Assembly (NCBI RefSeq): GCF_000685275.1 | Contig: NZ_ARYK01000011.1 | Span: 1 to 64,000 of the forward strand | Length of the DNA stretch: 64,000 nucleotides | Direction: 5' to 3' | From: Hyphomonas johnsonii MHS-2 | GTDB lineage: Bacteria; Pseudomonadota; Alphaproteobacteria; Caulobacterales; Hyphomonadaceae | Part shown: piece by piece, positions 34,435 through 52,969 of the stretch | How the letters are laid out: every line of letters begins with the position of its first letter | Numbering within the stretch: the first letter of the stretch is position 1 | Notes under the pieces: model-generated | Told to the model about the DNA's origin: nothing | The model's input: only the letters and a program-made list of their open reading frames with translations | Databases searched by the model: none | Made by a program: the position numbers and the translations under genes

Positions 34435-35154
34435 TCAAAAGGATAGGGATTCGAGCGCCTTAAAATCCTCGACCGTGTCGACTTCCGCCCAGGCACGGCC
34501 CTGAATGGAGAATGTCTCCACCTCTCCCGTCGTGCGGGCAATGGCATCAATCGCCTTGAGGAACCACGCGGAGACGCCATCCTGAGTGCGCATCATCTGC
34601 TCGAGCTTGGCACGGAACAAGCCCGGACCGGACCCCATGAATCTCAAGAGGCCGATCGACTCTGCATGGCTGACGGACTGACCCAATGACTTGCCGATGG
34701 CCTTCAGGTGCGTACCTTCCAGAGTCACTTTCATGTCATCGGAATCATAGGATGCCTTGCGGTCGATGGTTACCTGAATGGGCCGGGCCGGGCTCGACAG
34801 GACATCCTGCAGGAGGGCGACTTCAAACAGGGTGTCTCCATTTATCAGCAGGAAATCCTCGTTCATTTGCTCGCGGACCATCCAGCAGGTCGCAAGGTTG
34901 TCGGCAACCTGGAAGAACGGATTGAAGAATGCAGAGGCCTTTAGCGGGCCGCTGCGTCCGGCAAGCTCAGCCTCGACGAGGCCCGGCAGGAATCCCGTCA
35001 CGACGGTGGCCTGCCGTATGCCAGCTCTTTCCAGTGTATCCAGCTGGCAACCAAGCAGGGTGGTGTTTTTAACGGGCAGCATGCACTTCGGCATACTTTC
35101 AGTCAGTGGCAGAAGGCGCGAGCCGCGGCCGGCGCTCAATATGATGGCTTTCAT
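34435..35154 (-). CDS. Sugar-phosphate/phospho-alcohol nucleotidyltransferase (LicC/CpgD-like)
   Basis: NTP-transferase-fold protein of 239 aa with the signature MKAIILSAGRGSRLLPLTES followed by KCMLPV (the Lys of the G-rich loop), and metal-binding DFLLINGDTLFE. The short length without a C-terminal beta-helix is that of cytidylyltransferases acting on small phospho-alcohols (phosphocholine, inositol phosphate, phosphoglycerol). It overlaps the HAD gene by 4 nt and leads on to a CDP-alcohol phosphotransferase, so it probably makes the CDP-alcohol donor. In Caulobacter a cytidylyltransferase (CpgD) near the ceramide genes forms the activated phosphoglycerol for ceramide diphosphoglycerate; this gene may be its counterpart. 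Confidence 0.8.
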   Translation of the reverse strand: MKAIILSAGRGSRLLPLTESMPKCMLPVKNTTLLGCQLDTLERAGIRQATVVTGFLPGLVEAELAGRSGPLKASAFFNPFFQVADNLATCWMVREQMNEDFLLINGDTLFEVALLQDVLSSPARPIQVTIDRKASYDSDDMKVTLEGTHLKAIGKSLGQSVSHAESIGLLRFMGSGPGLFRAKLEQMMRTQDGVSAWFLKAIDAIARTTGEVETFSIQGRAWAEVDTVEDFKALESLSF

Positions 35155-35840
35155 GCAACCTCCGATGTGCCACTTGTGTGCGGATAACCGCTCGCAATCC
35201 GATAGTCCACCACCCTGACCTGATGGCCTGGCGCGGCGCGGCGTAAGCCGCGGGAGGGGTTGACCGCAATCCCGTGGTCGGCCTGAGCCAGCATGGCGAG
35301 ATCGGAAACATGATCGCTATAGGCGAAGACCGGGCCATGAAATCGGCAGTCGTCAATCCGGCGCAATTTTTCGGTGCCATAGCAATTGAGACCGGCCAGT
35401 CTTGGGGGACGAACCTTACCGCCCGTGGTCCAGTCAAGGCGGGTCGCGATGACCTGGTCGAAGCCGAGCGCTGCCGCAAGCCGGTCTGCCAGAAGGTCTA
35501 CTGCGGCGGTCGCAATGACGAGGCGGTCACCGCGTCGGGCATGCCACTTTATCGCGGCGACAGCACCGGGGTGCAGCCCCTGCGCGACTTCGCGTGCGAT
35601 GAACGTGTCGGCAGCCTCCTCCAATGCGTCACGGTCGAGCCAGGCAAGTGTTCGCAAGCTGTGGGCCTTGACCGAGTCGCGGCTGGCGAGGCCCATCTTG
35701 TGTGCGATGCCATGTCCGATCAGCCACGGCAGGCGTAGCAGGAACGGGACCCGCGCACGGTTCACAAAGAAGACGAACCGCGTCCACGTTGGTGCGCGCG
35801 TGATCGTTTTATCGAGATCGAAAATGGCCGTTCCGGGCAT
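35151..35840 (-). CDS. HAD-IB family phosphatase
   Basis: HAD hydrolase of 229 aa. Motif I is GTAIFDLDKTITRAPTW near the N-terminus, motif II lies in LVIATAAVDLLA, and the C-terminal AYSDHVSDLAMLAQA provides motif IV. This is the SerB/PGP-like IB subclass. The start ATG at 35840 puts motif I at the N-terminus and leaves 5 nt after the upstream stop; the longer frame to 36056 lies within the neighbouring gene. Genes on both sides handle CDP-alcohol lipids, so it may dephosphorylate a lipid phosphate intermediate such as a PGP-type product. Confidence 0.85.
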   Translation of the reverse strand: MPGTAIFDLDKTITRAPTWTRFVFFVNRARVPFLLRLPWLIGHGIAHKMGLASRDSVKAHSLRTLAWLDRDALEEAADTFIAREVAQGLHPGAVAAIKWHARRGDRLVIATAAVDLLADRLAAALGFDQVIATRLDWTTGGKVRPPRLAGLNCYGTEKLRRIDDCRFHGPVFAYSDHVSDLAMLAQADHGIAVNPSRGLRRAAPGHQVRVVDYRIASGYPHTSGTSEVA

Positions 35841-35845
35841 GATGG

Positions 35846-36982
35846 CTAACTCTCCATCCAGACGACCGGTTTGTCCGGTTGTGCGAGCGCCTGGAACAAC
35901 CGGACACCATGAAAAACGAGGCAGAGGATCGTCCAGACGGCAATTGCCACAAATCCCCAGCCGGGCTGGCCAACCAGGACAGCCAGCATGAAGATAAGCA
36001 TGTTCGGGTTGCGCCGCGCGGTAATGACGCGCGCGCGTGAATCGATCGGACGCCACACATGAATGTGAAAGCCGAAATACCGCATGAAGAATCCTTCTTC
36101 GAGGCGGTTCAGGACGTACCCGACAAGAATCGCACCCAGTGACATGAAAAGGAGCCCGTCGGAGGGGCCGCCGGGTGCCTGCATGAGCCCGTGAAATATT
36201 GCCCAGTACCAGAAGGGTGGATGGATCAGGTCGATGCCGTGATCGTAGATGTTGCCCCAGCGTGAATAGGTCATGGTGGTGCGGGCAAGCTTGCCGTCAA
36301 CCGTATCAAGGAACGTCATGCTCCATGCGGCCAAGATGCCAGGGAGCCATGCGCCTATCCAGAAAAACCAGAACGCAAGACAGACAAAGCCGAGGCTGGC
36401 CGTCGTGACCATGTTGGGTGACAGGTGCAGCCGGGCGGCGAGACGCGTGGCGTGAAAGGCGGGGATTGGCCAAGCATATTTGGTAACGAGGTCCGTAACC
36501 CCTTTATACGATCCCTTGAAGAGGACGCGCTCGACCTTGTGGGGCGGTGTTTCCTGCAGGGATAGCGCGTAGGGGGCTTCTCGCTTGCGGAGGGCTTTGT
36601 CATAGGGGTCTGCAAAGTCATTGACGTTGCCTGGGGTCAGGCCAGCGGCGCGCAAGGTCTCCGGGTCGGCAATGGTTTGCCCGACCAGGCCGGCGAAACG
36701 GTCGGCCTCAACCTCGTCGGGCAGGTGAAGGGCGGCAAGGCGCTGACCGGAACCGGAGCCATCCTCGACGAGCAGGGCAGCGCCAGGGGTTGCCAGCAAC
36801 GTACGCTGCAGGGCAGGTGACAACACCCACTCCATGCCCGTCAGCAACCGGCCGTCCTGCGTGCCGACCTTGGCAGCGCCGACCTTGGTCCACGACCGGC
36901 GCTGCCATTCGGCCAGATCAAGGCCCCAGAGCCTCACGGAAGTCTCACCAAGCAGGCGGACCACGACATGTGGTTTTGTCAT
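35846..36982 (-). CDS. CDP-alcohol phosphatidyltransferase with N-terminal extension
   Basis: Membrane enzyme of 378 aa. The first ~160 residues are a soluble, NTP-transferase-like region (VRLWGLDLAEWQRRSW), followed by the membrane part with the intact CAPT motif DGKLAR-x8-G-NIY-D-HGI-D (DG-x2-AR-x8-G-x3-D-x3-D). The layout resembles bifunctional or fused phospho-alcohol transferases such as inositol-phosphate lipid synthases. It transfers a phospho-alcohol from a CDP-alcohol to a second alcohol. In this locus ceramide, ceramide phosphate or glycerophosphate are candidate acceptors. TTG 37000 is an alternative start; ATG 36982 is chosen. Confidence 0.85.
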   Translation of the reverse strand: MTKPHVVVRLLGETSVRLWGLDLAEWQRRSWTKVGAAKVGTQDGRLLTGMEWVLSPALQRTLLATPGAALLVEDGSGSGQRLAALHLPDEVEADRFAGLVGQTIADPETLRAAGLTPGNVNDFADPYDKALRKREAPYALSLQETPPHKVERVLFKGSYKGVTDLVTKYAWPIPAFHATRLAARLHLSPNMVTTASLGFVCLAFWFFWIGAWLPGILAAWSMTFLDTVDGKLARTTMTYSRWGNIYDHGIDLIHPPFWYWAIFHGLMQAPGGPSDGLLFMSLGAILVGYVLNRLEEGFFMRYFGFHIHVWRPIDSRARVITARRNPNMLIFMLAVLVGQPGWGFVAIAVWTILCLVFHGVRLFQALAQPDKPVVWMES

Positions 36983-37062
36983 TCTAAAAATACGCCTCAA
37001 AATTCTTTGCGAAGTGATAGGGTCAACCGATACGCTGGTCCCTGTAAAGGAATGAGGTCCTT

Positions 37063-37503
37063 ATGAACAGAAACGCGACATTTGAAACTTTCGGCGGGAT
37101 GCGAACACTTGTCGCAGACTACCGTCACTGGAGTGTCCAGGCGCGCCCCCGGCAAGTGACCCTCGGTGCCATGGTTCTCCTGTCTCATGGCCCGGCGCAC
37201 AGTTTTTCGGAACTTCCGCCGGAGGCCTTTGTCGAGCTCTCGCACGTCGTTGGCGATATCGAGGCGACTGCCGCTGCGACGTTCGGCTACGCCAAGATCA
37301 ATTACCTGATGTTGATGATGGTCGATCCGCATGTGCATTTCCATGTGCTTCCCCGCTACGATGCACCGGTGGAATTCGAAGGAGTGGCCTATCCTGATCC
37401 GGGTTGGCCCGGTCAGCCCGACCTTGGCGCATCGGCGGGGCTTGCTGATGCTGTCCGTGTCGCGTCCGTGCTGAAGGCGGCATGGCCGAAATCGCGTGTC
37501 TGA
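37063..37503 (+). CDS. HIT family protein
   Basis: Histidine-triad hydrolase of 146 aa. The triad is H90-V-H92-F-H94 (DPHVHFHVLPRYD), preceded by INYLMLMMVD as in Fhit/galT-type members. HIT proteins hydrolyse or transfer nucleoside monophosphates. It stands alone on the + strand between two minus-strand blocks of the sphingolipid locus, with the CDP-alcohol gene start only 80 bp away, so the two share a divergent promoter region. Cleaning up CMP- or AMP-linked by-products of the nucleotidyltransferases would fit; this is inference. Confidence 0.85.
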   Translation: MNRNATFETFGGMRTLVADYRHWSVQARPRQVTLGAMVLLSHGPAHSFSELPPEAFVELSHVVGDIEATAAATFGYAKINYLMLMMVDPHVHFHVLPRYDAPVEFEGVAYPDPGWPGQPDLGASAGLADAVRVASVLKAAWPKSRV

Positions 37504-37544
37504 TCCAGTCAGGAGCGGCTGAGGCTCACGGTGCGCAACGATCA

Positions 37545-38336
37545 TCACCTTGCTCGGGTGAAGATGTCGCGGACCAGTTCCAGGTCGCGGGTGGAATCGA
37601 CATCAATCGCTGCCTCGGCGAACGGCAGGAGCACTGCTTTTATCCTTGTTCCAAGGCGTTTCGAAACCGTCTCGAACACCTTCTCCACCCCTGGACGACC
37701 AATCAGGATGTGCAGCGCCGTCAAAGGGCCAAAACGCCAGGCAATAAGCCAGGGGCGTTTGCGGTCCTGTTCCGCAGCGCGCCAGAAGCGCACGGCCCGC
37801 AAGGCATCAGGGGTCGCGATGTAAAACAGGTTGCAACCTGAAAGCTCCGGTCCCCCGAGCGACAGGTAGGTCCGCTTCGTTTGTGGATAGACGGATTCGA
37901 TCGTCTGGCGTGTTGCCAGACCCACCGTCAGGTCGGCGTCGCCTGCAATGGCCTCCCGTAGAAAATGATCGACCATCTGAGGAGTCAGGAGGGCGTGGTC
38001 ACAGGTTGTCACCAGCAGGGGGATCGGAACATCCAGGCCAAGTGCTCCGAGCAGGCTGGCTGCAGGCCCGCCTTCCACGGAGATGACGCCCCTCACGGGC
38101 AGGCCACCGCTCGCACGCTGAAGCAATTCATCGTCAAGGCCGGAGACATGAACCGGTTCTCGCACGCGCCGGCTAAGGGTCAGCGCTCGCAGCACCCTCG
38201 CGAGCATGGGTTCGCCCTGAATGTCGATAAGCGCCTTGCTTGGTACGCGTTCGGATACGCAAAGGGGGTCGCCGCTGGCGCGTGCGCCAGCGAGGACGAG
38301 CGCTGAGACAGGCGGTAACCGCTCTGGTCCGGTCAT
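37545..38336 (-). CDS. MobA-like nucleotidyltransferase
   Basis: NTP-transferase-like protein of 263 aa. The opening VSALVLAGARASGDPLC with downstream PSKALIDIQGEPML reproduces the GG-x-GTR...K-L...G-PM pattern of MobA-type enzymes, and LLVTTCDHALLTPQMVDHFL gives the metal-binding Asp. Start ATG 38336 overlaps the stop of the ceramide synthase gene (ATGA); the longer frame is rejected. It is a second nucleotidyltransferase in the sphingolipid locus and is probably used for head-group activation rather than for molybdopterin, since no moa/mob gene is nearby. Confidence 0.75.
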   Translation of the reverse strand: MTGPERLPPVSALVLAGARASGDPLCVSERVPSKALIDIQGEPMLARVLRALTLSRRVREPVHVSGLDDELLQRASGGLPVRGVISVEGGPAASLLGALGLDVPIPLLVTTCDHALLTPQMVDHFLREAIAGDADLTVGLATRQTIESVYPQTKRTYLSLGGPELSGCNLFYIATPDALRAVRFWRAAEQDRKRPWLIAWRFGPLTALHILIGRPGVEKVFETVSKRLGTRIKAVLLPFAEAAIDVDSTRDLELVRDIFTRAR

Positions 38337-39517
38337 AACGCTTTGTCGTAAATGCGATAAGTCTTGTAGCGGGGAGCAGCGTAGACCGAGACAAGTTTGA
38401 TGAGATCCCGGTTGGTCTCGAGAATCCACGATGCCTCGACTTCCCGGACGCCCCGTGCGTGCTGCGCTGCAAAGGCCGCCTCACAGCTCGCGACCATGGC
38501 CAGCATGCCCCGACGGGTCTTGTGAAATTTTCGCCGCATGCCGGCAAGCGGCAGTCTGGCTGTCCGCGTGCCCCGCAGGTTCAAGCGGTGCAGCAATTGC
38601 AGCCAGCCGAAGGGCAACAACCGGCCATCGAGCCCCTCTGTTGCCTCGTTCAGGTTTGGCAGCACCAATGTGAAACAGGCCGGTTCGCCGTCGATCAGGC
38701 CGATCCATAGCCCGTCGCGTCGTATCAGCGGCTTCAATTCGTTAGCCAGGTGCGTGATCTCGTCTTTGCCGAATGGTACAAAGCCCCAATTGTTGGACCA
38801 TGCATCGTCGAAGATATCGAGAACGAGATTGATTTCGCCCTTGTAGTCCTGCGAGTTCAGCATGCGCACTTCGAGGCCGGGATCACGGCCGAAGGCCTCC
38901 TTGAGCTTGCGGATTTTTTCAGGCACCCGGTAGGGCTCGCCAAGCGAGCACATATAGGCATGCAGGTCCATCGCCTTGGTGTAGTGGCACGCTTCCAGCG
39001 CCGGCGCATAGTCAGGCCGGCCGTGCGGCATCATCATCACCGGGGGGGTGTCAAACCCGTCCACCAGCAAGCCGCATTCCTCATTGACCGAAAAATTGAA
39101 CGGCCCGGCGATTCTCTTCATGCCGCGTGAGCGCAGCCAGTCTTCGGCGGCCTGCATGAGTGCACCGACGACTTCGCCGTCTGGCGAAATTGTATCCAGA
39201 AAACCAAAGTGCCCTGTCGCATCCTTGTGCACTTCAAGGTGGGCCGGATTGATGAAAGCGGCGACGCGCCCAACCACGTCATTGCCTCGGCGCGCGACCA
39301 TCAGGACGTGCTCCATGCGCGCAAGCGACGGGTTCTTGGCGGGGTCAATCTGCGCCGCCCGCTCGAATCGAAGTGGCGCACGCCAGTCCTCAAGATGCCC
39401 GTAGGCTTCGTAGGGGACCTCGAGGAACGCCTTTCGGTCGGCCGTCGTTTGCAGCGGGCGGATCGAGATGTCGCCGTTTGTCGAAGGCTTCGTCCGGACC
39501 AATGTGTCGTCGGTCAT
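38333..39517 (-). CDS. bcerS: Bacterial ceramide synthase-like N-acyltransferase
   Basis: GNAT-fold protein of 394 aa with LEVPYEAYGHLEDWRAPLRF and RMEHVLMVARRGNDVVGRVAAFIN near the N-terminus, DGFDTPPVMMMPHGRPDY in the middle and WILETNRDLIKLVSVY near the C-terminus, all characteristic of the large uncharacterised-looking acyltransferases found beside bacterial spt genes. In Caulobacter the homologous gene near spt is required for N-acylation of the sphingoid base. Here it lies about 5 kb from spt with the same neighbours, so ceramide synthesis is a strong inference. It shows no relation to eukaryotic Lass/LAG1 synthases. ATGA overlap on both sides. Confidence 0.8.
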   Translation of the reverse strand: MTDDTLVRTKPSTNGDISIRPLQTTADRKAFLEVPYEAYGHLEDWRAPLRFERAAQIDPAKNPSLARMEHVLMVARRGNDVVGRVAAFINPAHLEVHKDATGHFGFLDTISPDGEVVGALMQAAEDWLRSRGMKRIAGPFNFSVNEECGLLVDGFDTPPVMMMPHGRPDYAPALEACHYTKAMDLHAYMCSLGEPYRVPEKIRKLKEAFGRDPGLEVRMLNSQDYKGEINLVLDIFDDAWSNNWGFVPFGKDEITHLANELKPLIRRDGLWIGLIDGEPACFTLVLPNLNEATEGLDGRLLPFGWLQLLHRLNLRGTRTARLPLAGMRRKFHKTRRGMLAMVASCEAAFAAQHARGVREVEASWILETNRDLIKLVSVYAAPRYKTYRIYDKAL

Positions 39518-40002
39518 TCCTGCAGCTCGATCTGGATCAGTGTCGAGCCGTCACCGGCCTCGAAAGCAGCATCCTTGAAACGGGGCATGCCGAAACCCAA
39601 TGGCTTGTTGTTCGACAGCGCAAAGGGTTCGGCCGGCAACCTGTTCCACTTGCGGGCAAGGTCACGATCACCGTTCAGGTCATTGTAGGCTGCCAGTGCG
39701 TAGGTCCCGGCCGCGTTGATATCGAAGCACACGGTCTGCGTGCCGTCCGTGGCTGGCACACGAATACGGTGCAGTCTGGATGCCTTCCGGAGAAAATCGT
39801 GCACGCTGGGAGCATACAGTTCAACCGTCAGGATCCCTCCAGCCCTTACGCCCGCGACGTCAACCTGGATTTGCGGCGCGTGCGAACCGCATACCGCTGG
39901 CGCTTCATGCTGGCGGATATCCAGGGTCTGGCCCGAGTCTGCGATTGCCCCGGTCGCAAGCAAGGCCGGAGCAAGGAGCAATGCCTTCGAGACTTTCAAC
40001 AT
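39514..40002 (-). CDS. DUF2141 secreted protein
   Basis: Exported protein of 162 aa. N-terminal signal MLKVSKALLLAPALLATGAIA, then a single beta-sandwich DUF2141 domain: GVRAGGILTVELYAPSVHDF, AGTYALAAYNDLNGDRDL (the acidic DxNGD loop) and LSNNKPLGFGMPRFKDAAF. ATG 40002 has GGAGG 5 nt upstream. The downstream ceramide synthase starts in its stop codon. DUF2141 proteins are periplasmic and of unknown role. Being first in an operon with ceramide synthase suggests a periplasmic factor for sphingolipid handling. Confidence 0.85.
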   Translation of the reverse strand: MLKVSKALLLAPALLATGAIADSGQTLDIRQHEAPAVCGSHAPQIQVDVAGVRAGGILTVELYAPSVHDFLRKASRLHRIRVPATDGTQTVCFDINAAGTYALAAYNDLNGDRDLARKWNRLPAEPFALSNNKPLGFGMPRFKDAAFEAGDGSTLIQIELQE

Positions 40003-40155
40003 GATCCTCCAAATCTGACGCAAACGTGACGTATCGGTTAAGATGACATTATAGTAATGACAAGGTGACGGTCGTATCAATGGAAGCCTGCAGCAGGGGC
40101 TGTTCGGGCACTGTCGCAATGCGGCAGATTCAGCTGACGGGAGATTGCGCAAGGG

Positions 40156-41334
40156 ATGATCGTGAAGCTCGATCGCTATCTGCTGCAAAGCTGCCTCGGC
40201 CTGTTTGGCGGGCTGACCATGCTCGCGCTTGCCTTGCTGCTGCTTGAACGGCTGATACGCATCATCGATATCGTCTCCGGGTCCAACGATACGGTCGTGG
40301 CGGCCAGCCTGATGGTGGCGAATCTTGTCCCTCATTACCTCGACCTTGCCCTGCCAGGGGCATTCCTGATCGCCATGATCATCACCATTGACCGGCTCAG
40401 TCGTTCTGGCGAAATCGTCGCCCTGATGGCGGCGGGTGTGTCGCTGTACCGGATCGTCACACCTTACCTCGGGCTGGCTATCATACTGGCCGTGGTGTCG
40501 TTGTTCATATCCGGGTTCCTGCAACCCTTGTCGCGCTACAATTACCGACAGGTCGTGTATGACCTGCAAAACGAATCTGTCGTGACGGCATTCCAGGAGC
40601 GCAAGTTCGTCCAACTCAAGGATCGTATTGTCTGGACCGACCATGTGGACGGCTCCAAGCGTAATCTGGGGCAGACCTTCATTCTCGAAACCGAGCCGGA
40701 TGGCGCACGCCACTTCCTGACAGGGCAAACCGGCGAGTTGAATGAGATGGGGGATGGGACCATCATCATTTCGCTCAACAATGGAGCGGGCGGGACCGTC
40801 GGCGGGGCCGATGAATCCGGCTCGAACCATACAGTGTCTTACGGCCAGCTGAGTTGGCCGATGCCGACCCCTGATGGTGACTTTCGCAAGCGGGGCCAGG
40901 ACGAGCGCGAGCTGGTCTTGCCGGAACTCGTCGCTGCATCAAAGGGGGCGAGTGACGCTGCGATCGACCCGGTTGTTGCCAATGCGAGTTTCCATGACCG
41001 TGTGAGCCGCGCCGCGATATTACCCATCCTGCCATTGATTGGCGTCATCCTCGGACTCAACCTTGGCCGCACGCCGCGTTCCGGTGGTATCGCGATTGGT
41101 ATCCTCCTTCTTCTGTCGGTCCAGAAAATCCTGGAATACGGCTTGGCATTGGCCGAACGCGGCGCTGTTCCGGCATGGGCCGGCTTCTGGCCGGTCGTCC
41201 TGGTTCTTGCCGTGGCGGCGCTTTTCATGTTCCGCCGCCTTGCTCACGGTCACATACTGTTCGGGCCAGGGCGGGTTCGCCGGCGATGGAAATCGCTCCC
41301 GGCTAAACGCGTGAGTGACACCACCCAGATATGA
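40156..41334 (+). CDS. LptF/LptG-like (YjgP/YjgQ) permease
   Basis: Inner-membrane permease of 392 aa with the LptF/G architecture: three helices near the N-terminus (LFGGLTMLALALLLLERLIR and PGAFLIAMIITIDRLSRSGE, with the family motif SRSGEIVALMAAGVS), a periplasmic beta-jellyroll (VVYDLQNESVVTAFQERKF... up to ~300) and three C-terminal helices (AAILPILPLIGVILGLNLGR onward). It overlaps the second permease gene (ATGA), and kinase and nucleotidyltransferase genes follow in the same unit. A bona fide LPS-exporter role cannot be excluded, but the setting points to export of sphingolipid. Confidence 0.88.
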   Translation: MIVKLDRYLLQSCLGLFGGLTMLALALLLLERLIRIIDIVSGSNDTVVAASLMVANLVPHYLDLALPGAFLIAMIITIDRLSRSGEIVALMAAGVSLYRIVTPYLGLAIILAVVSLFISGFLQPLSRYNYRQVVYDLQNESVVTAFQERKFVQLKDRIVWTDHVDGSKRNLGQTFILETEPDGARHFLTGQTGELNEMGDGTIIISLNNGAGGTVGGADESGSNHTVSYGQLSWPMPTPDGDFRKRGQDERELVLPELVAASKGASDAAIDPVVANASFHDRVSRAAILPILPLIGVILGLNLGRTPRSGGIAIGILLLLSVQKILEYGLALAERGAVPAWAGFWPVVLVLAVAALFMFRRLAHGHILFGPGRVRRRWKSLPAKRVSDTTQI

Positions 41335-42386
41335 CAAGCCGCCTTTCGCGTTACCTGTCGGTGCTATTTTTGCAGCGCCTTTTCATCACCTTGTTCGGCA
41401 TGGTGACGCTGCTCGGTGTGCTCGATGCGCTTGGCAATGCTGACCTTGTGCCAGACGGTGCGGGATTGGTGGGGCAGGTGAGATACATGGTGCTCAGGAT
41501 GCCCATCCTGTTCGACCGGACGTTCGTGTTCGGGCTCCTGTTGGCCGTCCTGCTAACGTACGCGTCTCTGTATCGACGAAACGAACTGGTCATCATATCA
41601 GGCTCCGGCTTGTCGGTTTTTGGTCAGGTCCGCGCTCTTGCTCCTGCTGTTATTTTTGTCAGCGTCGTATCTGCAATCGGGATTGACCAGATCAATCCGG
41701 TTGCCAGCAAAGCGCTGGAGGATTGGCTCGGCACCTCTGTCCTGCGCGAGAATTCGCAGACGCCGGAGCGCGTGTGGTTGTCCGATGGCCGGTTGCTCGT
41801 CGAAGTCGCTGGAATGCAGAACGAACGCCTGTCTGGCCTGACGATTTTCGAACGTGATGCGAACGGCGCCGTGATTGCTGTCACGACGGCAGGCACGGCA
41901 AGCCCGGTCGCGGGCGGGTGGCGGCTTGAAGATACCGAGCAGCAGCGATTCGACGGGCGAACACCGCAGAACGATACGTTCTGGTCCAGCGCGCAGACCC
42001 CCGACAGTCTTCACCTCCTGTTGACGGAGCCGCGTGACCTTGCGCTCGCAGACCTGCTTGCTCTCCACCGGATGCGGGGCTCCGGCAGTCGCCCGGCCAG
42101 CGCATACCTGCTTTGGGCGCTACACCGGATTTCGCTACCGCTTGCAGCCCTTGCGGTCCTCATGCTCGCAGTTCCGATCATGCAGCTTTACGGCCGGCGT
42201 GACAGCAGCGACATTGCCCTGGCGCGCGGCGTGGCGGCGGGGTTTGTCTTCATGGTCACGGACGGTGTGCTCAAGACGCTTGCCGAGAGCGGTCGTTTCA
42301 GCGCCCCGCTCGCGGTCGCCCTGCCAATACTCGGTCTGGCCTTGGCCGGTTTATGGCTGGCCCTTGGTCGGGAAGTTCAAAAATGA
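41331..42386 (+). CDS. LptF/LptG-like (YjgP/YjgQ) permease
   Basis: Second permease of the pair, 351 aa: N-terminal helices (FLQRLFITLFGMVTLLGVLD, FDRTFVFGLLLAVLLTYASL), the family segment SLYRRNELVIISGSGLS, a jellyroll region (~120-250) and three C-terminal helices (LPLAALAVLMLAVPIMQLYG...). As with LptF and LptG, two such proteins would form a heterodimer driven by a separate LptB-type ATPase, which is not encoded in this window. Start and stop overlap both neighbours by ATGA, so it is tightly co-translated with the lipid kinase gene. Confidence 0.87.
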   Translation: MTSRLSRYLSVLFLQRLFITLFGMVTLLGVLDALGNADLVPDGAGLVGQVRYMVLRMPILFDRTFVFGLLLAVLLTYASLYRRNELVIISGSGLSVFGQVRALAPAVIFVSVVSAIGIDQINPVASKALEDWLGTSVLRENSQTPERVWLSDGRLLVEVAGMQNERLSGLTIFERDANGAVIAVTTAGTASPVAGGWRLEDTEQQRFDGRTPQNDTFWSSAQTPDSLHLLLTEPRDLALADLLALHRMRGSGSRPASAYLLWALHRISLPLAALAVLMLAVPIMQLYGRRDSSDIALARGVAAGFVFMVTDGVLKTLAESGRFSAPLAVALPILGLALAGLWLALGREVQK

Positions 42387-43348
42387 GGGCCCCGGTTGGG
42401 CTGGTCGTAAATCCGCGGAGTCATACCGTCCGGCGGAAAGGCTCTGTTTTGGAAGCGGCCGCCGCCAATATGCCGGGTGTGTCGCTGGTGAAGCTCGATG
42501 ACTTCAACCATCTTGAGGTCCAGATGGCTGGCCTCGCGCGCCAAGGGGTCCGGCAGGTCTATGTCGAAGGCGGCGACGGCACCTTGCAGGCCGTGCTGAC
42601 AGCCAGCCTTGCACCCCGGTCAGGTTTCGACGACGTGCCCGAATTTGCAATCCTGCCGGGCGGCAGCACAAATCTTGCCTACAAGGTCTTCGGCCTGAAA
42701 CTGAAGACTCAAAATGTGGCGCGCGCGTACATAGAGCGCCGTGCCCAGCAGGGCGACAGGCTTGCCACGGCCTGGCACAGAGCGCTGGTCGTCGACAACG
42801 CAAGCCTGGCAAGCCCCGCAATTGGATTTCTCCTGTCGACCGGGTCTCTGGCACGCGCCATGGCGTACACGCAGCAGCAACTGCATGGCGAGGGGCATCG
42901 CGGATCACTTGCCATCGCGGGGGCGATGGCACGGCTCATGGCGAGGCCCAGCCGGCATCTTGGCCGTGATGGCCAACCTGTGCTCTGCCCCAGTCCGCTG
43001 ACGGTCGAAGCGCCACAGTTTCGGGTGGAAGGCAGTCATGCGCTCAGCCTGATGACAACCCTGCCTTCGCTCAACCTTCGCCTCCGGCCTTTCTGGGGTG
43101 AGGGAGCTGCACCCATCGCGGTCACACACGCCGGCTGGCCGATCAAGGGTCTACATGCTGCACTGCTGAAGGTATTGGTCGGTCAGGCAGGTCACCGCAT
43201 GGTCCAGCATGGGCTGGTCAGTCATCGCGCCGACGCTGTCAGGTTGGACTACAAGGGGTGGATCATGCTTGATGGAGAAATGCTGCCCGCCCCCCCCGAC
43301 GGACATCTCGCAGTCGGCGTCACACCGCCGATAAGGTTCATGAGATGA
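42383..43348 (+). CDS. Lipid kinase (diacylglycerol/ceramide kinase-like)
   Basis: Kinase of 321 aa with the DAGK catalytic domain: GLVVNPRSHTVRRKG, nucleotide loop VEGGDGTLQA (GGDGT 63-67), and ILPGGSTNLAYKVFGL. In Caulobacter the homologous gene next to spt (cpgB) phosphorylates ceramide on the way to ceramide phosphoglycerate lipids; the same position here supports ceramide as substrate, but diacylglycerol or sphingoid base cannot be excluded. It is flanked by ATGA overlaps with the LptG-like and nucleotidyltransferase-like genes. No membrane helix. Confidence 0.83.
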   Translation: MRAPVGLVVNPRSHTVRRKGSVLEAAAANMPGVSLVKLDDFNHLEVQMAGLARQGVRQVYVEGGDGTLQAVLTASLAPRSGFDDVPEFAILPGGSTNLAYKVFGLKLKTQNVARAYIERRAQQGDRLATAWHRALVVDNASLASPAIGFLLSTGSLARAMAYTQQQLHGEGHRGSLAIAGAMARLMARPSRHLGRDGQPVLCPSPLTVEAPQFRVEGSHALSLMTTLPSLNLRLRPFWGEGAAPIAVTHAGWPIKGLHAALLKVLVGQAGHRMVQHGLVSHRADAVRLDYKGWIMLDGEMLPAPPDGHLAVGVTPPIRFMR

Positions 43349-44268
43349 TAGAGGATTCGGTGCGTGAGGGCCTGCGCGAGATTGTACGTGCTGACCAGCT
43401 GCCGCTTAACCGGGCGGCAGCCTGCATGGCTGATGCGATCCGTGCGAAGCACCCCGGTGCCGTGCGCGCACTCATCTTTTACGGCTCAGCCCTGCGGATG
43501 GGAGAGCGCGCCGACAAGATGCTGGATTTCTACGTTATCGTCGACAGTTACCGAGCGATCCACGGGGTGGGTGTGAAACAGTTTGCGTCATTCCTCGTTC
43601 CTCCAAGCGTCCATTTCCTTGAGGTCGTGGATGGCGATGGCGTGCGGCTGCGCAGCAAGTACGCCATCGTATCGGAAAAGGCCTTTCACCGGCGCACGCG
43701 CGGCGATGCATTCGAGTCGATGCTGTGGGCACGCTTTGCCCAGCCAGCAACCATCATTACCGACGATCCGGCTGTTCACGACGCCCTCATCGACACGTTG
43801 GCAAGCGCCTGTGCGAAGCTCGCCAGGGAAGTTGCGCCGATGCTGGACGAGCCCGTCCAACCGCTTGACCCTTGGGTGAGGGGCCTGACCGAGAGTTACC
43901 GAACCGAGCTACGCCCGGAAACGCCCGAGGCCCGTGCGCAAGAGATTGTCGGTCGATTTGAGGACCGCTACCGCAAACTCACGTCTCTGCTCTTTGCCCA
44001 GCAACCCCCGCCATCAACTGGCCGCGGTGCGGCGGCCGCGCTTTGCCGGGTGCGCTGGTTCCTGCGGCGGGTCATCGGCAAACCCGTCGGAGCGCTGCGC
44101 GTACTAAAGGCCGCCGCGACCTTCGATGCGGGACTCGACTACATCCTCGAAAAAATCGAAGGCCACTCTGGCGTGACGCTTGTTGTCAGCGAGAATGAGC
44201 GGAATCACCCGGTGCTGCATGCGCCAGTTCTGGCTTGGCGCCTTTTCCGAGCCGGGGCTTTCCGCTGA
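43345..44268 (+). CDS. Nucleotidyltransferase-fold protein, Tam41-like
   Basis: Protein of 307 aa with a Pol-beta-type nucleotidyltransferase signature: ALIFYGSALRMGERADKMLDFYVIVDSY, i.e. YGS followed by the D-x-V-x-V metal site. This form resembles mitochondrial CDP-diacylglycerol synthase Tam41. The later helical part (AAALCRVRWFLRRVIGKPVG) looks membrane-associated. It is co-translated with the ceramide/DAG kinase (ATGA), so it may turn the phosphorylated lipid into a CDP- or other activated form. It ends 10 bp from the convergent spt gene. Family assignment rests on motifs alone. Confidence 0.7.
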   Translation: MIEDSVREGLREIVRADQLPLNRAAACMADAIRAKHPGAVRALIFYGSALRMGERADKMLDFYVIVDSYRAIHGVGVKQFASFLVPPSVHFLEVVDGDGVRLRSKYAIVSEKAFHRRTRGDAFESMLWARFAQPATIITDDPAVHDALIDTLASACAKLAREVAPMLDEPVQPLDPWVRGLTESYRTELRPETPEARAQEIVGRFEDRYRKLTSLLFAQQPPPSTGRGAAAALCRVRWFLRRVIGKPVGALRVLKAAATFDAGLDYILEKIEGHSGVTLVVSENERNHPVLHAPVLAWRLFRAGAFR

Positions 44269-44278
44269 ACTGGGCCGT

Positions 44279-45484
44279 TTAACTGACCAGATCCGACAGG
44301 GCGTTGAACACTTCGAGGATCTGATCAATTTCGCTTTCGCTATGTGCGGCAGACACACTCAGTCTCAGCAGGGATTTGGCTTGTGGCGTTGCCGGCGGCA
44401 CAGCGAGATTGACGTAAACTCCGGCCTCCAGGAGTGCGTTCCACTCGCGCACGGCTGTCGTCTCGTCTGCCCTTGGCAGGGCAATGATCGGCCCGGGGGC
44501 GGAGGCAGGTTCGAAGCCTGCTGCCCGCAGGCCGGAATGGAGTTGGTTGGCACGATCCCAAAGGCGCCTGCCAAGCTCATCGCTACCGGCAATCGTGGCG
44601 AGCGCCGCGCGCGCGGCCGCAATGTTTGCCGGCGACCCGGATGCGGTGAACAGGTATGGGCGGCTGACAAGGCGTGTGTATTCAAAGGATTCATGGCGCG
44701 ACACGCAAAAACCGCCAAGCGAGGCAAAGCTTTTCGAAAATGTGCCGGACAGGAAATCAACCTTGTCGAGAACCCCCTGCGCCTGCGCAACACCTCGCCC
44801 GCGTTCGCCGTAGCAGCCCACCGAATGGGCCTCGTCAACGTACAGGAACGCGCCATGCTCGCTGGCCACGTCAACGAACTCTGCCAGTGGAGCAACGTCG
44901 CCCAGCATGGAATACAGGCCCTCAACCACGATCAGGCGTGCGCCGTCATCCGGAAGGCGTGAGAGGCGCTTGGCTAGGTCTTCCGGGCTGTTGTGGCGGA
45001 ACCGGATTGTCTCGGCATCGCTCAGGCGGCAGCCATCATAGATGCAGGCGTGACTGTCGGCGTCGATCAGCAGATGGTCTCCGCGCCCGACGAGGGCACT
45101 TATGGCTGCGAGGTTCGCCTGGTATCCGGTTGTGAATACGATGGCCGAGGCAGCGTTGAAGTAGGCCTTCAGGGCTGTTTCAAGTTCCAGATGCTCGCGG
45201 AATGTACCGTTGGCCAGACGGCTTCCGGTCGTGGCGGTCCCTTGATGGTCGATGGCTGCCTTGGCAGCGGTTGTGCAGGCTTCTGAGAAGGTCAGGCCAA
45301 GATAATTGTTGGTTCCAGCCAGGATAACTTCGCGTGAACCTACTCGCGCTCGCGTAGGTGACAGGATTTCGTCAAACACCATGCCGAAGGGCTGCGTCCC
45401 AAGGGTCGCAACGCCGTGATAGCGCTCAGCCAGCTTTTCGAATTTTTCGAAAATGTCGTTTTTCTTCATGCCACTGTCAAACAT
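44279..45484 (-). CDS. spt: Serine palmitoyltransferase (alpha-oxoamine synthase)
   Basis: PLP enzyme of 401 aa joining serine to an acyl thioester to give 3-ketosphinganine. Visible residues: VILAGTNNYLGLTF and GSRLANGTFREHLELE (AOS family), H144 stacking over PLP (IDADSHACIYDG), D217 and H220 (LYVDEAHSVGCYG), and the Schiff-base K251 (GTFSKSFASLGG). The Spt reading over KBL or ALAS rests on context: a dedicated ACP with 8-nt overlap, a CerR-like reductase, an acyl-ACP synthetase and a ceramide synthase. Start ATG 45484, with ATG 45469 as alternative. Confidence 0.88.
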   Translation of the reverse strand: MFDSGMKKNDIFEKFEKLAERYHGVATLGTQPFGMVFDEILSPTRARVGSREVILAGTNNYLGLTFSEACTTAAKAAIDHQGTATTGSRLANGTFREHLELETALKAYFNAASAIVFTTGYQANLAAISALVGRGDHLLIDADSHACIYDGCRLSDAETIRFRHNSPEDLAKRLSRLPDDGARLIVVEGLYSMLGDVAPLAEFVDVASEHGAFLYVDEAHSVGCYGERGRGVAQAQGVLDKVDFLSGTFSKSFASLGGFCVSRHESFEYTRLVSRPYLFTASGSPANIAAARAALATIAGSDELGRRLWDRANQLHSGLRAAGFEPASAPGPIIALPRADETTAVREWNALLEAGVYVNLAVPPATPQAKSLLRLSVSAAHSESEIDQILEVFNALSDLVS

Positions 45485-45728
45485 TGGTCAATTGCCCGAT
45501 TGTTTCCACAAGGTCCCGGACGGTATCAATGCTGGACGCGACCTCTACCGGAAAGCTGATGTCATAAATGTCTTCAATTTCCATGACGATATCGAAAATT
45601 TCAACGGAATCGATTTCGAGATCGGCGCTGATGCGCACGTCCGGCGTAATCAGAATATCGGCATGTGCATGGGCCTTGAGTATCTTGGATACATTTTCAA
45701 ATACGTGAGAATCTTGCACGTTACACAT
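45477..45728 (-). CDS. Dedicated acyl carrier protein for sphingolipid synthesis
   Basis: ACP of 83 aa. The phosphopantetheine serine is S41 in LEIDSVEIFDIVMEIED; helices before and after are typical, and the protein is acidic. ATG 45728 overlaps the end of the reductase gene, and its stop overlaps the spt start. In Caulobacter the equivalent ACP (AcpR) carries the acyl chain condensed by Spt, loaded by the adjacent acyl-ACP synthetase. The longer in-frame extension to 45779 runs into the reductase and is not used. Confidence 0.88.
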   Translation of the reverse strand: MCNVQDSHVFENVSKILKAHAHADILITPDVRISADLEIDSVEIFDIVMEIEDIYDISFPVEVASSIDTVRDLVETIGQLTNV

Positions 45729-46704
45729 CCCTTTTTTCGATCCCGCCGCGATGTACAGGCCGGAACCCGCCAGGAGCAAGAAACGGGGCGAGACAGCGCG
45801 CCATTGTCACGTCGAGTGCTGTCGGTAGTTCGATGGCCCTATCAGCGAGCCAGTCGCCCGCCTGCAGTTCGCGCACCTTTCCGGTCGAGAAGACATGGGG
45901 TCTGCCTGTAATACGGGCGGTGCCATCTGCAATAAAACCAGCAGCATCGAAAAGCAAGGCAGGCACGGCCAGCATGTTGATCTTGCGTCCTGTCACGCGG
46001 GCTGCGCTGTCTGCAATATCGTTCCAGCGCAGGCTGAGGTGACCGGCAGGAGTCATCACCTCGGATCTCGGTTTGTCATCGCGTGCGCGCCGGGCCAGCA
46101 GAGCTGCCAGGTCGTCGACGTCTATCACCGAAAACCTGTAATTCCTCGCGCGGCCCCCCGGTACGGGGAGAAGCCCCCTTGCGAGCAGTCTGAACATCGT
46201 TTGCGTTGCAGAATCTTCTGGTCCGATCACCGCTGGTGCCCTGATTATGCTAACAGGCATTGTCCCTGCCGCGTCGCGCGCAAGGCGTTCCCCCGCAGCC
46301 TTGGACCGGGCATAGGCCGATACGTCCGCTCGTGTCGCCGTAAGGGATGACACATGAATGAAGTGCCGGACTCCGGCGTCCCTGGCGATTCCGGCCAGCA
46401 GGCCTGTGGCGGCTGCATTTACTTGATCGAATTCTGCATTGCTGCGCGCCTTCGTGAGGCCGGCGAGGTGTATGATGACGTCTGTATCGGTCGCCAGGCG
46501 CTCAAGCGCGTCCGGGTCCCTGAGATCACCGGCCACCCACTCAAGGCCGGGCCGGGGCTCCATCTTGCGGCCGGATGCGGGCCGAGCGAGGACCTTGACC
46601 GAAACACCTTGCTCAAGCAGCAGCGGTAATAATTTCCGGCCCACAAACCCGGTCGCGCCCGTCAGGCCGATGCGTGTGTGGTCGGGGATAGATGTGCGGG
46701 CGAT
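45721..46704 (-). CDS. cerR: NAD-dependent epimerase-like ceramide/ketosphinganine reductase (CerR type); start codon uncertain
   Basis: Extended-SDR protein of about 327 aa. The Rossmann glycine motif IGLTGATGFVGRKLLPLL is encoded only if translation begins upstream of 46644, yet the first ATG/GTG/TTG in this frame is GTG 46644, which lies inside the motif. Between the synthetase stop (46711) and the motif only non-standard codons such as ATC (46704 or 46689) are available; 46704 is taken here as the working start. Other features: HFIHVSSLTATRADVSAYARSKAA (Ser, Tyr, Lys of SDRs) and SIIRAPAVIGPED. In Caulobacter the homolog between acp and acyl-ACP synthetase genes is CerR. Function strong by synteny, start weak. 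Confidence 0.8.
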   Translation of the reverse strand: MARTSIPDHTRIGLTGATGFVGRKLLPLLLEQGVSVKVLARPASGRKMEPRPGLEWVAGDLRDPDALERLATDTDVIIHLAGLTKARSNAEFDQVNAAATGLLAGIARDAGVRHFIHVSSLTATRADVSAYARSKAAGERLARDAAGTMPVSIIRAPAVIGPEDSATQTMFRLLARGLLPVPGGRARNYRFSVIDVDDLAALLARRARDDKPRSEVMTPAGHLSLRWNDIADSAARVTGRKINMLAVPALLFDAAGFIADGTARITGRPHVFSTGKVRELQAGDWLADRAIELPTALDVTMARCLAPFLAPGGFRPVHRGGIEKRDV

Positions 46705-46710
46705 TGCTGA

Positions 46711-48450
46711 TCAGGCCCCGAGTGTGCCTGCGACGACATTGCCCTGCCTTTGCGGCACAAAATCACCCGCGAGAAAGCCGATGCGCGCGGCCGCCCGGCT
46801 CAATTTTCCGGAGCTGGTTGTCGGCAAGGAACGGATGGCGACGAACTCGACAGACACTGGCGCACCTGTTGCCGCGCGGGTCGCCGCCGAGATGTCGCGC
46901 CTGAGTTCAGCGCGAACGGCTTCATCGCGTGACCGACATTCGGCCAGGAGCAGGATTTTGATCGCGCCATTTTCGTCCTGTACGTCGAATGCAGCCGAGC
47001 GGGCGATGTTCCGACCACCGGCTTCCTGTGCGACGCCTTCAATATCCTGTGGCCAGATATTGCGACCATTCCAGAGGATCAGGTCCTTTGAGCGTCCGGT
47101 GATGACAAGCTCGTCCTCATTCCAGTAGCCTAGGTCGCCCGTTTCGAGCCAGCCATCCTCATTGGTAAGAGGCTGCAACGGTTCATTCACGCGGAAATAG
47201 CCTGCGGCGATGGATGGACCGCGCACGATAATGCGGCCGACTTGCCGGTCGCCCAGCGCTTCGTCGTTGTCATTGACGATCCGCAGGTCGAGCGAAGGCA
47301 GCGGGCGGCCGCTGGACACGAATCTCCGGGCTGTTCCCTCAAACGTCAGGTCGGAAGCGGGCAGGGCGCGGCCGGACGTCTGCATCCTCGCCAGATCGAT
47401 GTCGTCTGTTCGCAGGCCCGCCCTGAGGGGCGCGAACGACACCGCAAGCGTTGCTTCTGCCAGTCCGTAGCTTGAGACAAAGGCGGACGGATCGAACCCG
47501 GATGGAGCGAAGGTCTGCGTGAAGGCCGACAGCGCCTCGCTACGCACCATGTCGCCGCCGATGCCTGCGGCTCGCCAGGATGAAAGATCCAACACCTCAC
47601 CGCGATAACGACGGGCGCAGAGTTCATAACCAAAACTCGGGCTGTAGGAGAGCGTGCCGCGGTTTTCGCTGATAAGTTTGAGCCAAGTGCCGGGGCGTCG
47701 GGCAAAATCCGACGGCGACAGGAAATCAATCGACAGCTGGGAATACAGGGGGGCGATAAAGAAGCCGACCAGGCCCATGTCGTGATATAGCGGTAGCCAA
47801 GACACGGCCCGGTCGCCCTCAACAACCTGCAAGCCTTCCTGAATGATCGCGCGACAATTTGCAGAAACGCTCGCTTGTGTTGCCACAATGCCCTTGGGCT
47901 GGCTCGTGCAACCGGATGAGAACTGGATGTACGACAGGTCGTTCGCGCCGTGCCGCAGCGCAAGTGCGGTGCCGGATGGAAGGTCGGAACCTGACATGTC
48001 AACTACACGTACCGACGTTCCCGATAGTGCCGAATTGATGATATCCCGGACGGAGGCTGGCGTCATCAAGGCAGCAAGGCCGGCCTGTCTGACCATCTGT
48101 CCGACCTGGCGCTCGTAAATCTTGCGCCCGCCGAAGGCCGCGGGCAGGCTGAGCGGGGCAGGCACCATGCCGGCATATTGACAGGCCATGAAAGCAGTCA
48201 CGAAGTCTGCAGAGGTTTCTGCGACAAGGCCGATGCGGGACTCGCGCGCGAATGCGGCGGCCAGTTGGCCGGCCATGCCCAAGGCGTTGTTTCGTAGCTC
48301 ACCATAGGTGAGACTATTCATCAGGCGTCCGTCTGAATGATAGAAATTGACACCCGAATTGCCTTCGGCCGCATAGTCCAGTGCGTCACATATTGTCTCG
48401 AATGTCCCCGCGCGTAGTTCAATCCCTGCCGTCGTTGCTGTTGGTTTCAA
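46711..48450 (-). CDS. Fatty acyl-AMP ligase/acyl-ACP synthetase for sphingolipid synthesis
   Basis: ANL enzyme of 579 aa of the FAAL group. P-loop IQFSSGCTSQPKGIVATQ; WLPLYHDMGLVGFFIAPLYS and FVSSYGLAEATLAVSF are typical FAAL blocks; WLETGDLGYWNEDELVITGRSKD is motif A7-A8. FAALs activate a fatty acid as AMP and pass it to an ACP. Here the ACP is encoded two genes downstream, as in Caulobacter, where the corresponding enzyme charges the spt-linked ACP. First gene of the minus-strand unit ending with spt; the 485 bp upstream must hold its promoter. ATG start at 48450. Confidence 0.87.
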   Translation of the reverse strand: MKPTATTAGIELRAGTFETICDALDYAAEGNSGVNFYHSDGRLMNSLTYGELRNNALGMAGQLAAAFARESRIGLVAETSADFVTAFMACQYAGMVPAPLSLPAAFGGRKIYERQVGQMVRQAGLAALMTPASVRDIINSALSGTSVRVVDMSGSDLPSGTALALRHGANDLSYIQFSSGCTSQPKGIVATQASVSANCRAIIQEGLQVVEGDRAVSWLPLYHDMGLVGFFIAPLYSQLSIDFLSPSDFARRPGTWLKLISENRGTLSYSPSFGYELCARRYRGEVLDLSSWRAAGIGGDMVRSEALSAFTQTFAPSGFDPSAFVSSYGLAEATLAVSFAPLRAGLRTDDIDLARMQTSGRALPASDLTFEGTARRFVSSGRPLPSLDLRIVNDNDEALGDRQVGRIIVRGPSIAAGYFRVNEPLQPLTNEDGWLETGDLGYWNEDELVITGRSKDLILWNGRNIWPQDIEGVAQEAGGRNIARSAAFDVQDENGAIKILLLAECRSRDEAVRAELRRDISAATRAATGAPVSVEFVAIRSLPTTSSGKLSRAAARIGFLAGDFVPQRQGNVVAGTLGA

Positions 48451-48935
48451 AGCGAACTGCCCCTGAGTCTTCGATCTAAATCCTAATGATTTGCTCTATA
48501 CACGCAATACTCCAAGTTGAAGTCACAAGATTGGCATGTGTCATATAACCAACTGACGCAGGTCAGGAGGACGGACTCATTGCAGCCACCAGGTGCGGCG
48601 GCTTGCAGGTCATTCGTTTTCCGATGCTTGCTGACCCACCCCGCGGCTAGCAGACCAACCCATGATCGGCAGGGATCGAGCCAGGTATTGTGCTCAATGC
48701 GCATGAGACAACCAGAAGCAACCATCTCATTGTCGTCGCCCCGGTGGCGACGATAAATCACGCTCAGCAAAGACCGGAAGCCCCTTTTGGGCCGAGCCAC
48801 TGATGGGTTGTTGTCGATTTTCCTGCCGAACCTGCGACGAATTCGGCAATTTGCAGGTGATATGGAGCGTCTGCGCAAATGGTCAGTTTGAACAGGACGC
48901 GGGAAGAGGGAGGGGGCGGCCTTCGGAGAAGTATG
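48451..48935. other. Intergenic region before the acyl-ACP synthetase unit
   Basis: About 485 bp between two minus-strand genes. A 131-residue open frame on the minus strand lacks any domain or ribosome binding site and is not accepted. The stretch probably carries the promoter for the synthetase-reductase-ACP-spt unit close to 48460-48540, but no convincing -35/-10 pair stands out. Confidence 0.5.
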
Positions 48936-52864: not shown

Positions 52865-52932
52865 TATGAACTGTCCGCGCGAGAATTTACGTACAGATCA
52901 TTCAGAATTAACGTATGCGTCAACAGAAAATC

Positions 52933-52961
52933 TTGACATTATCCATTACTAAAAGTAATAC
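52933..52961 (+). promoter_or_regulatory. LysR promoter with embedded palindrome
   Basis: TTGACA (52933-52938), 17-bp spacer and TAATAC (52956-52961) form a near-consensus promoter reading toward the LysR gene. Inside it lies ATTACT-AAA-AGTAAT (52945-52959), a perfect inverted repeat with the T-N11-A form of LysR-type boxes. A transcript starting about 7 nt after the -10 would begin nearly at the ATG (52970), implying a leaderless or very short-leader mRNA. Confidence 0.6.
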
Positions 52962-52969
52962 TTAGAAGA

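Follow-up and report, generated by a model that had tools for sequence, protein, structure and literature searches.

A probable ceramide phosphoglycerate gene cluster in Hyphomonas johnsonii and the phosphatase gene beside cpgA

The closest described relative of the locus analysed here is the 17-gene cluster of Caulobacter crescentus (CC_1168-CC_1152), in which six genes in addition to the five for ceramide participate in formation of the ceramide phosphoglycerate lipid CPG2, and in which LptC2/LptF2/LptG2 and a flippase are named as probable transporters (PMC11324152). Clusters of this kind have been described in alpha-, beta- and gammaproteobacteria, and Hyphomonas neptunium carries 16 of the 17 Caulobacter genes and no CC_1158 ortholog (PMC11324152). 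The specificity of the AcpR/AasR pair has been shown (PMC9386255), structures and substrate residues of CpgD have been reported (PMC13228409), and CpgD produces CDP-glycerate, with CpgC said to act via a yet unidentified mechanism (PMC12275187). The five ceramide genes, clustered and the only ones named, are also described for E. coli BL21(DE3) (PMC9386255), which we liken to the present locus by description only. In Caulobacter, survival without lipopolysaccharide is partly supported by CPG2 (PMC12275187), and the lipid is the presumptive target of polymyxin in this organism (PMC11324152). Here we analyse a related cluster in a 64,000-nucleotide stretch of Hyphomonas johnsonii MHS-2 (contig NZ_ARYK01000011.1); this whole stretch is called the window, and coordinates refer to it.

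Gene content compared with the Caulobacter cluster

Sixteen open-frame genes and one decayed remnant make up the cluster (33983-50291), which extends as far as the flippase gene ending at 50291. In our analysis it very probably is a working cluster for an anionic phosphoceramide of the CPG/CPG2 type that would be moved to the outer membrane. The support consists of family and fold matches, the spacing of a Met/Lys pair in CpgD, conserved gene order, a second LptF/LptG pair and the mutual exclusivity of two phosphatases. The locus belongs to the published cluster type, and the genus has already been named in print for H. neptunium. The minus strand carries the cpgD-like, HAD, cpgA-like, CC_1153-like, cerS, DUF2141, spt, acpR, cerR, aasR and flippase genes, and the plus strand the HIT, lptF2, lptG2, kinase and cpgC-like genes. 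This order is identical in all seven other spt-positive Hyphomonas genomes (the contig ends before aasR in G014 and G033) and for that reason the locus is more than a chance assembly; protein identities to these genomes range from 49% (cerR, kinase) up to 93% (spt). One of them, G015, which we take to be H. neptunium, has a locus (L023) with the same order including the HAD, HIT and DUF2141 genes, but with an open TagF-like gene after cpgD where that of the window is broken.

Common to the window and CC_1168-CC_1152 (PMC11324152) are the five ceramide genes, CpgA-CpgD, the CC_1153-like gene, LptF2/LptG2, the flippase and the HIT gene, the last matched by its position. The window differs in having a HAD phosphatase and no CC_1158-type metallophosphoesterase, in the decay of the gene at the CC_1167 position, in an additional DUF2141 gene and in gene order, and no LptC2 (CC_1168) was found in it by Pfam PF06835.

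A preliminary description of this stretch had named all five Caulobacter ceramide genes, and models, structures and motifs bear this out, cerS being recognised from synteny and from a weak match to GNAT. As that description also had it, aasR-cerR-acpR-spt form one unit; it runs on the minus strand from 48450 to 44279, its gaps not exceeding about 50 bases. The acyl-AcpR synthetase gene aasR (CC_1165; 46711-48450) scores 664.3 bits with NF006624, a fatty acyl-AMP ligase model whose cut-off is 600, and cerR (CC_1164; 45721 to about 46665, start codon uncertain) encodes an NAD-dependent reductase of the NAD epimerase/dehydratase family (PF01370, 6.8e-18). The acyl carrier protein gene acpR (CC_1163; 45477-45719; PF00550, 1e-6), with the phosphopantetheine serine site LEIDSVEIF, lies immediately upstream of spt, the serine palmitoyltransferase gene (CC_1162; 44279-45484; NF047599, 569.5 bits, cut-off 500). 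Hyphomonas sp. BRH_c22 (93%), an Alphaproteobacteria metagenome-assembled genome (91%) and H. polymorpha PS728 (77%) are among the sources of the nearest spt genes in the named collection. The GNAT-like ceramide synthase gene cerS (CC_1154; 38333-39517, minus strand) stands 4.8 kb from the unit, the preliminary estimate having been about 5 kb. Its homologues are found near spt in many of the loci fetched, and the GNAT call otherwise comes from a weak Pfam match (PF00583, E 0.015). Among the PHROGs phage families nothing matched spt or cpgA at 1e-10; aasR matched one unnamed family. If the published Caulobacter roles apply, AasR would load a fatty acid onto AcpR, Spt would join the acyl group to serine, and CerS and CerR would finish the ceramide.

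The named neighbours, namely a lipid kinase, the HAD phosphatase, a CDP-alcohol phosphotransferase, two nucleotidyltransferases and LptF/LptG, were all recovered. CpgB is a ceramide kinase in which GGDG is present and CxxxCxxC absent (PMC10331486), and the window kinase (cpgB-like, CC_1160; 42353-43348, plus strand; PF00781, 1.1e-11) is like it in both respects; it would phosphorylate ceramide. The cpgD-like phosphoglycerate cytidylyltransferase gene (CC_1152; 34435-35154, minus strand; PF00483, 2.9e-10) encodes Met141 and Lys155, placed by their 14-residue spacing, which is that of Met147 and Lys161 of CpgD. Trp197 is near its expected place (spacing 56, versus 54 in CpgD), as is the GxGxR arginine, residue 13 (spacing 128, versus 131). 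These four residues are invariant in three aligned Hyphomonas proteins, and the enzyme would make CDP-glycerate. The CpgA and CpgC homologues were assigned via loci with the Caulobacter layout and not against C. crescentus sequences. The cpgA-like CDP-alcohol phosphotransferase (CC_1159; 35846-37000, minus strand; PF01066, 3.6e-7) and the MobA-like CC_1153-type nucleotidyltransferase (37545-38336, minus strand; PF12804, 2.9e-12, and synteny) would, going by published Caulobacter genetics, be required for the second phosphoglycerate.

For the cpgC-like gene (CC_1161; 43345-44268, plus strand) sequence searches returned no Pfam family, only a weak nucleotidyltransferase match in the PDB (E 0.21) and no sequence-level match to Tam41, but an FYG...DFY motif is invariant in 13 of 13 homologues. 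The predicted model (pLDDT 81, pTM 0.80) superimposes on Tam41 7ecd with a Z score of 17.8 (root-mean-square deviation 3.2, 223 residues aligned; Foldseek E 7.2e-7). The three Tam41 entries score 17.8, 15.5 and 14.8, and the best row outside Tam41 scores 7.0. A CDP-diacylglycerol synthase InterPro domain has been noted for CC_1161 (PMC11324152). CpgC is likely to be a Tam41-type CDP-lipid synthase with CDP-ceramide as its product, an assignment that the structural match strengthens; going by the fold, it would probably activate ceramide-1-phosphate with CTP.

Outward transport of the lipid would fall to the Wzx-like flippase (CC_1166; 48936-50291, minus strand; PF01943, 3.7e-12) and the second LptF/LptG pair. 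Syntenic copies of the flippase in five Hyphomonas loci are 60-67% identical. The genes lptF2 (40156-41334, plus strand; PF03739, 4.9e-58) and lptG2 (41331-42386, plus strand; PF03739, 5.7e-47; TIGR04408, 176.2 bits, under the cut-off of 240) form one of two such pairs in the genome, the other being at G000:C1.

Phosphatase genes beside cpgA

In Hyphomonas a HAD-IB phosphatase gene (35151-35840, minus strand; PF12710, 5.2e-30; TIGR01490, 99.0 bits, cut-off 98.3) adjoins cpgA in place of a metallophosphoesterase; its start, first put at 36056, was corrected to near 35840. From taxonomy and cluster layout we take the family code f2 to be Caulobacteraceae, f1 to be Hyphomonadaceae and the sampled order to be Caulobacterales. 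The f2 loci have the Caulobacter layout, and there a calcineurin-like metallophosphoesterase gene stands divergently beside cpgA (L033:11954-12973, PF00149). It fits CC_1158, which is described with a phosphoesterase domain (PMC11324152). A lipid phenotype is reported for CC_1158, which is not essential for CPG2 in Caulobacter and is missing from the six other clusters described (PMC11324152); Azotobacter vinelandii, Pseudomonas luteola, Nitrosomonas eutropha and Sphingomonas wittichii are reported to be without it. The words "phosphatase" and "haloacid" are absent from the main text of that paper.

The two enzymes were then scored beside cpgA and genome-wide. Adjacency was counted in 49 loci with a cpgA match (48 genomes, G059 twice, window excluded), drawn from the 57 of 188 loci that were listed: a HAD gene lies 3-78 bp from cpgA in 27, a metallophosphoesterase gene 68-299 bp from it in 20, both in none and neither in two. 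A second count, also used for a CpgA tree, took one locus per genome with a 4-kb limit, the window and other orders included; its 59 loci comprise 29 with HAD only, 22 with metallophosphoesterase only, seven with neither and one with both (G521, where the metallophosphoesterase match is weak). Genome-wide searches covered 37 (metallophosphoesterase) and 41 (HAD) genomes picked from the cpgA-positive ones, G184, G193, G279 and G169 being scored for metallophosphoesterase by locus only. No metallophosphoesterase match better than 1.2e-18 was found in the 24 HAD-adjacent genomes searched, and no HAD match better than 2.6e-14 in the 13 metallophosphoesterase genomes searched. At the ortholog level 27 of 41 genomes have the HAD enzyme, 13 the metallophosphoesterase and one neither, so that exactly one is present in 40 of 41. 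The HAD ortholog lies away from cpgA in G222, G587 and G521, and the metallophosphoesterase is unlinked in G157, G404 and G423. Residues Asp8, Asp10, Thr12, Lys158, Asp176 and Asp180 of the HAD enzyme are invariant in 30 of 30 sequences, and the metallophosphoesterase motif residues are conserved too.

On balance these patterns favour a shared function for the HAD enzyme and the metallophosphoesterase. The phosphatase would trim or complete the product, a task that here would sooner fall to the HAD enzyme than to a metallophosphoesterase like CC_1158. A less probable but substantial alternative, bearing on the phosphatase part alone, is that the two are not equivalents and merely mark two cluster lineages. 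On the CpgA tree the HAD and metallophosphoesterase labels are separated by one switch (locus states) or two (genome-wide states), and the HAD label against all other states requires three. The tree is a quick one with several long branches, and it offers two or three independent pairs. Independence of the exclusivity from shared ancestry, when tested on this tree, could not be shown; with one or two switches and two or three pairs, the exclusivity is inseparable from ancestry. The lineage-marker explanation gains from this and from G411, which has neither enzyme at the ortholog level. It sits less well with both enzymes being of phosphatase type and placed beside cpgA, with the reported CC_1158 lipid phenotype and with the retention of one enzyme even away from cpgA, as for the HAD enzymes of G222 and G587 and the three unlinked metallophosphoesterases.

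These tree results and the state of G411 count against a working CPG/CPG2-type cluster as well, and several further observations stand on the same side. The ortholog thresholds (about 1e-28 for HAD and about 3e-45 for metallophosphoesterase) were set afterwards from a gap in the matches. G521 has a weaker HAD gene near cpgA, a second, unlinked HAD gene and a weak metallophosphoesterase (33%, 2.2e-13) about 4 kb off. The gene at the CC_1167 position is decayed in the window. PF06835 finds no LptC anywhere in the genome, the housekeeping copy included, although it does match in Caulobacter vibrioides. Finally, no ATG, GTG or TTG lies between the aasR stop and the GATGFVG Rossmann motif of cerR, the first GTG (46644) being downstream of the motif. 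The "apparently full" head-group and transport functions of the preliminary description stand insofar as the genes match those of published CPG2 clusters; the missing CC_1158 ortholog (no metallophosphoesterase was matched at 1e-10 in the window's own genome), the decayed gene and the LptC result qualify the word "full".

Head group, transferase candidate and integrity of the cluster

It is improbable that the ceramide made here carries a different head group, such as one resembling phosphoinositol or phosphocholine. This reading draws on the membership of CpgD in the sugar/choline-phosphate cytidylyltransferase family and on the likeness of CpgA to inositol-phosphate transferases. Below the respective cut-offs, models of archaetidylinositol and phosphatidylinositol phosphate synthases match CpgA, and the bifunctional inositol enzyme NF041135 is matched in part by CpgD and in part by CpgA. 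The closest solved relative of the window CpgD is the CTP:phosphocholine cytidylyltransferase 1jyk (8.8e-11). Against these matches are set the Met/Lys pair of CpgD at exactly the published spacing and the retention of the CPG2 gene complement as a block. An inositol phosphoceramide pathway, with a phospho-head group on ceramide, occurs in Bacteroides thetaiotaomicron and is likened to this locus by description only.

The gene at the CC_1167 position was assigned as TagF-like, and that at the CC_1157 position as HIT, from where each stands in Caulobacter-layout loci. Directly upstream of the flippase gene, the place expected for CC_1167, 13 of 17 f2 loci have a gene from one and the same family. 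In the Hyphomonas genomes G013, G015, G008, G034 and G029 the TagF-like gene follows cpgD; that of G029 is split over two overlapping frames, which may reflect breakage or misassembly. G033 has the gene in convergent orientation to cpgD, and in G014 it is found about 38 kb from there. Ten of 16 family members match PF04464 (CDP-glycerol glycerophosphotransferase) at E<=0.1, the best at 2.3e-8, with two single members below the cut-off; the top PDB profile matches, both weak, are the TagF-like Cps3D (E 0.0054) and TarL (E 0.23). In the window only a decayed N-terminal remnant of this PF04464-related TagF/TarL-like family is seen (33983-34331, plus strand). With tblastn it appears as three collinear pieces, each in a different frame and one of them interrupted by a stop. 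They correspond to residues 3-119 of the G033 protein, which is 372 residues long, with a joint E of 5.4e-15, and score 46.6, 29.3 and 27.7 bits; the best single score in 200 shuffled segments was 21.9. A search of the window's own genome returned no match at 1e-8.

CC_1167 has been called probably unrelated, yet has a cofitness of 0.57 with spt and 0.54 with CC_1159 (PMC11324152). With CDP-glycerate as the product of CpgD, a TagF-like enzyme suggests itself as the transferase, and we propose the CC_1167-position product as a candidate for this role, in which it would use the CDP-glycerate. Two open reading frames that by eye resemble pieces of an IS256-type transposase adjoin the TagF-like gene in G033 (L021:12376-13654).

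The broken CC_1167-like gene and the noncanonical start of cerR could also mean that this strain's cluster is in decay and would yield only ceramide or CPG, which we consider quite unlikely. The cerR start may be CTG 46665 or an ATC, as the first GTG would cut the Rossmann motif. The uneven occurrence of spt fits decay: it is present in only 8 of 42 Hyphomonas genomes. On an LptF/LptG tree of 41 of the 42 (G026, with no LptF match, was left out) its presence requires five changes, at least four of them forced by well-supported branches, and the trait has therefore been lost or moved repeatedly within the genus. Decay is opposed by the other 16 genes being open and in conserved order, and by intact motif residues in the HAD enzyme, CpgC, the kinase, ACP, SPT and HIT. 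Nor is absence of the CC_1167-like gene peculiar to this strain: the gene was found in 18 of 47 cpgA- or spt-positive genomes searched (including all seven other spt-positive Hyphomonas) and is thus absent from most. That spt is a KBL/AONS-type enzyme in a locus unrelated to sphingolipids, which the preliminary description had set as its own refutation, was rejected as almost without likelihood: the alpha-oxoamine synthase family is common to all these enzymes, but spt passes the SPT cut-off and falls under those of the AONS (307.6 vs 426.45) and glycine C-acetyltransferase (253.7 vs 493; 288.5 vs 460) models, bacterial SPTs are closest to it among solved structures (2x8u, E 1e-122), with KBL 1fc4 far behind (3e-58), and genes for an ACP, a reductase and a synthetase adjoin it.

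Returning to the CPG/CPG2-type cluster, its last steps may be linked to transport. In eight genomes of one related family (code f4) flippase-like and CpgA parts occupy a single open frame. Seven of these fusions (loci L158, L159, L163-L166 and L168) are complete, at 824-837 residues counted from the first ATG, and one, L162, runs off its contig. By BLAST the N-terminal part of one fusion resembles the flippases of G053 (8e-50) and of the window (4e-32); the N-terminal half of two fusions gave no Polysacc_synt Pfam match at E<=0.01. The shared frame suggests that flipping and head-group completion are coupled. The main text of PMC11324152 uses "fusion" only in an instrument name.

Three proposals can be combined, namely that the HAD enzyme is a non-orthologous replacement of CC_1158 in lineages described as lacking it, that the TagF/TarL-like enzyme adds or extends phosphoglycerate from CDP-glycerate, and that CpgA is coupled to the flippase; jointly they are tentative and, as a set, rather less probable than their failure. 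If true, they would place teichoic-acid-like chemistry on a Gram-negative sphingolipid, and loss of the TagF-like gene would predict a shorter head group in the window genome than in sister species. The value of the locus lies in its candidates for CPG2 steps without an assigned enzyme: the HAD phosphatase, the TagF-like transferase, the Tam41-type CpgC and the DUF2141 protein.

Distribution, DUF2141 and HIT genes, and flanking regions

In the order to which the window belongs, 46 of the 299 genomes sampled have a cpgA match at E<=1e-25. In a sample drawn across the phylum cpgA matches occur in 10 of 398 genomes. The window's own genome is counted in both. The preliminary description had called bacterial sphingolipid loci rare; the order-level count and the clusters published from alpha-, beta- and gammaproteobacteria and from H. 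neptunium (PMC11324152) do not bear this out. Earlier chemotaxonomy saw alphaproteobacterial sphingolipids as confined to the Sphingomonadales (PMC7179689), a restriction that the predicted gene content contradicts. One genome outside the order, G319, has three cpgA-like genes within 22 kb, at and beside its sphingolipid cluster (G319:C11:237109-259304, L203 in part).

The DUF2141 gene (39514-40002, minus strand; PF09912, 6e-20) adjoins cerS, in many cases standing between it and spt, both in Hyphomonas and in the majority of the Parvularculaceae and Marinicaulis loci fetched, and is complete in 35 of 80 named spt loci. The first part of a longer open reading frame was rejected as antisense to lptF2. 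The start of the protein is by eye signal-peptide-like. Its model (pLDDT 87, pTM 0.78) gave no Foldseek match at E<=0.001; a likeness to a secretin pilotin (Z 8.4, 92 residues) was set aside as a common arrangement, with no function claimed. DUF2141 is not mentioned in the main text of PMC11324152, and a literature search for it returned three papers, none with a title on sphingolipids. As a gene that travels with cerS and spt, it encodes a candidate pathway component.

The HIT-family gene (37063-37503, plus strand), assigned to CC_1157 by position, matches PF01230 at E 0.0025 (18.9 bits, under the cut-off of 21.5) and keeps an intact HVHFH triad (residue 90). A 183-residue minus-strand frame at 36997-37548 appears spurious, the conserved reading there being the HIT gene. 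Copies 68-89% identical lie beside cpgA in the seven other spt-positive Hyphomonas. Among the listed cpgA loci, a HIT gene is at most 1.8 kb from cpgA in most f1, f2 and f5 loci and in only one f4 locus (G156).

At 50688-53902 the cluster is adjoined by genes for a beta-keto acid cleavage enzyme and for a class III aminotransferase, along with a divergently oriented LysR regulator gene; apart from a weak LysR match these neighbours were not seen in the short flanks of other Hyphomonas clusters. Over the 1-7 kb of flank compared, the window shares with other species that weak LysR match, the TagF-like remnant and a stretch at 33245-33478 (with G013). Further upstream, ARAGORN calls a tRNA-His at 29949-30044 on the plus strand within a 502-codon FAD-oxidoreductase-like open reading frame of the opposite strand, and the call is probably a false positive.

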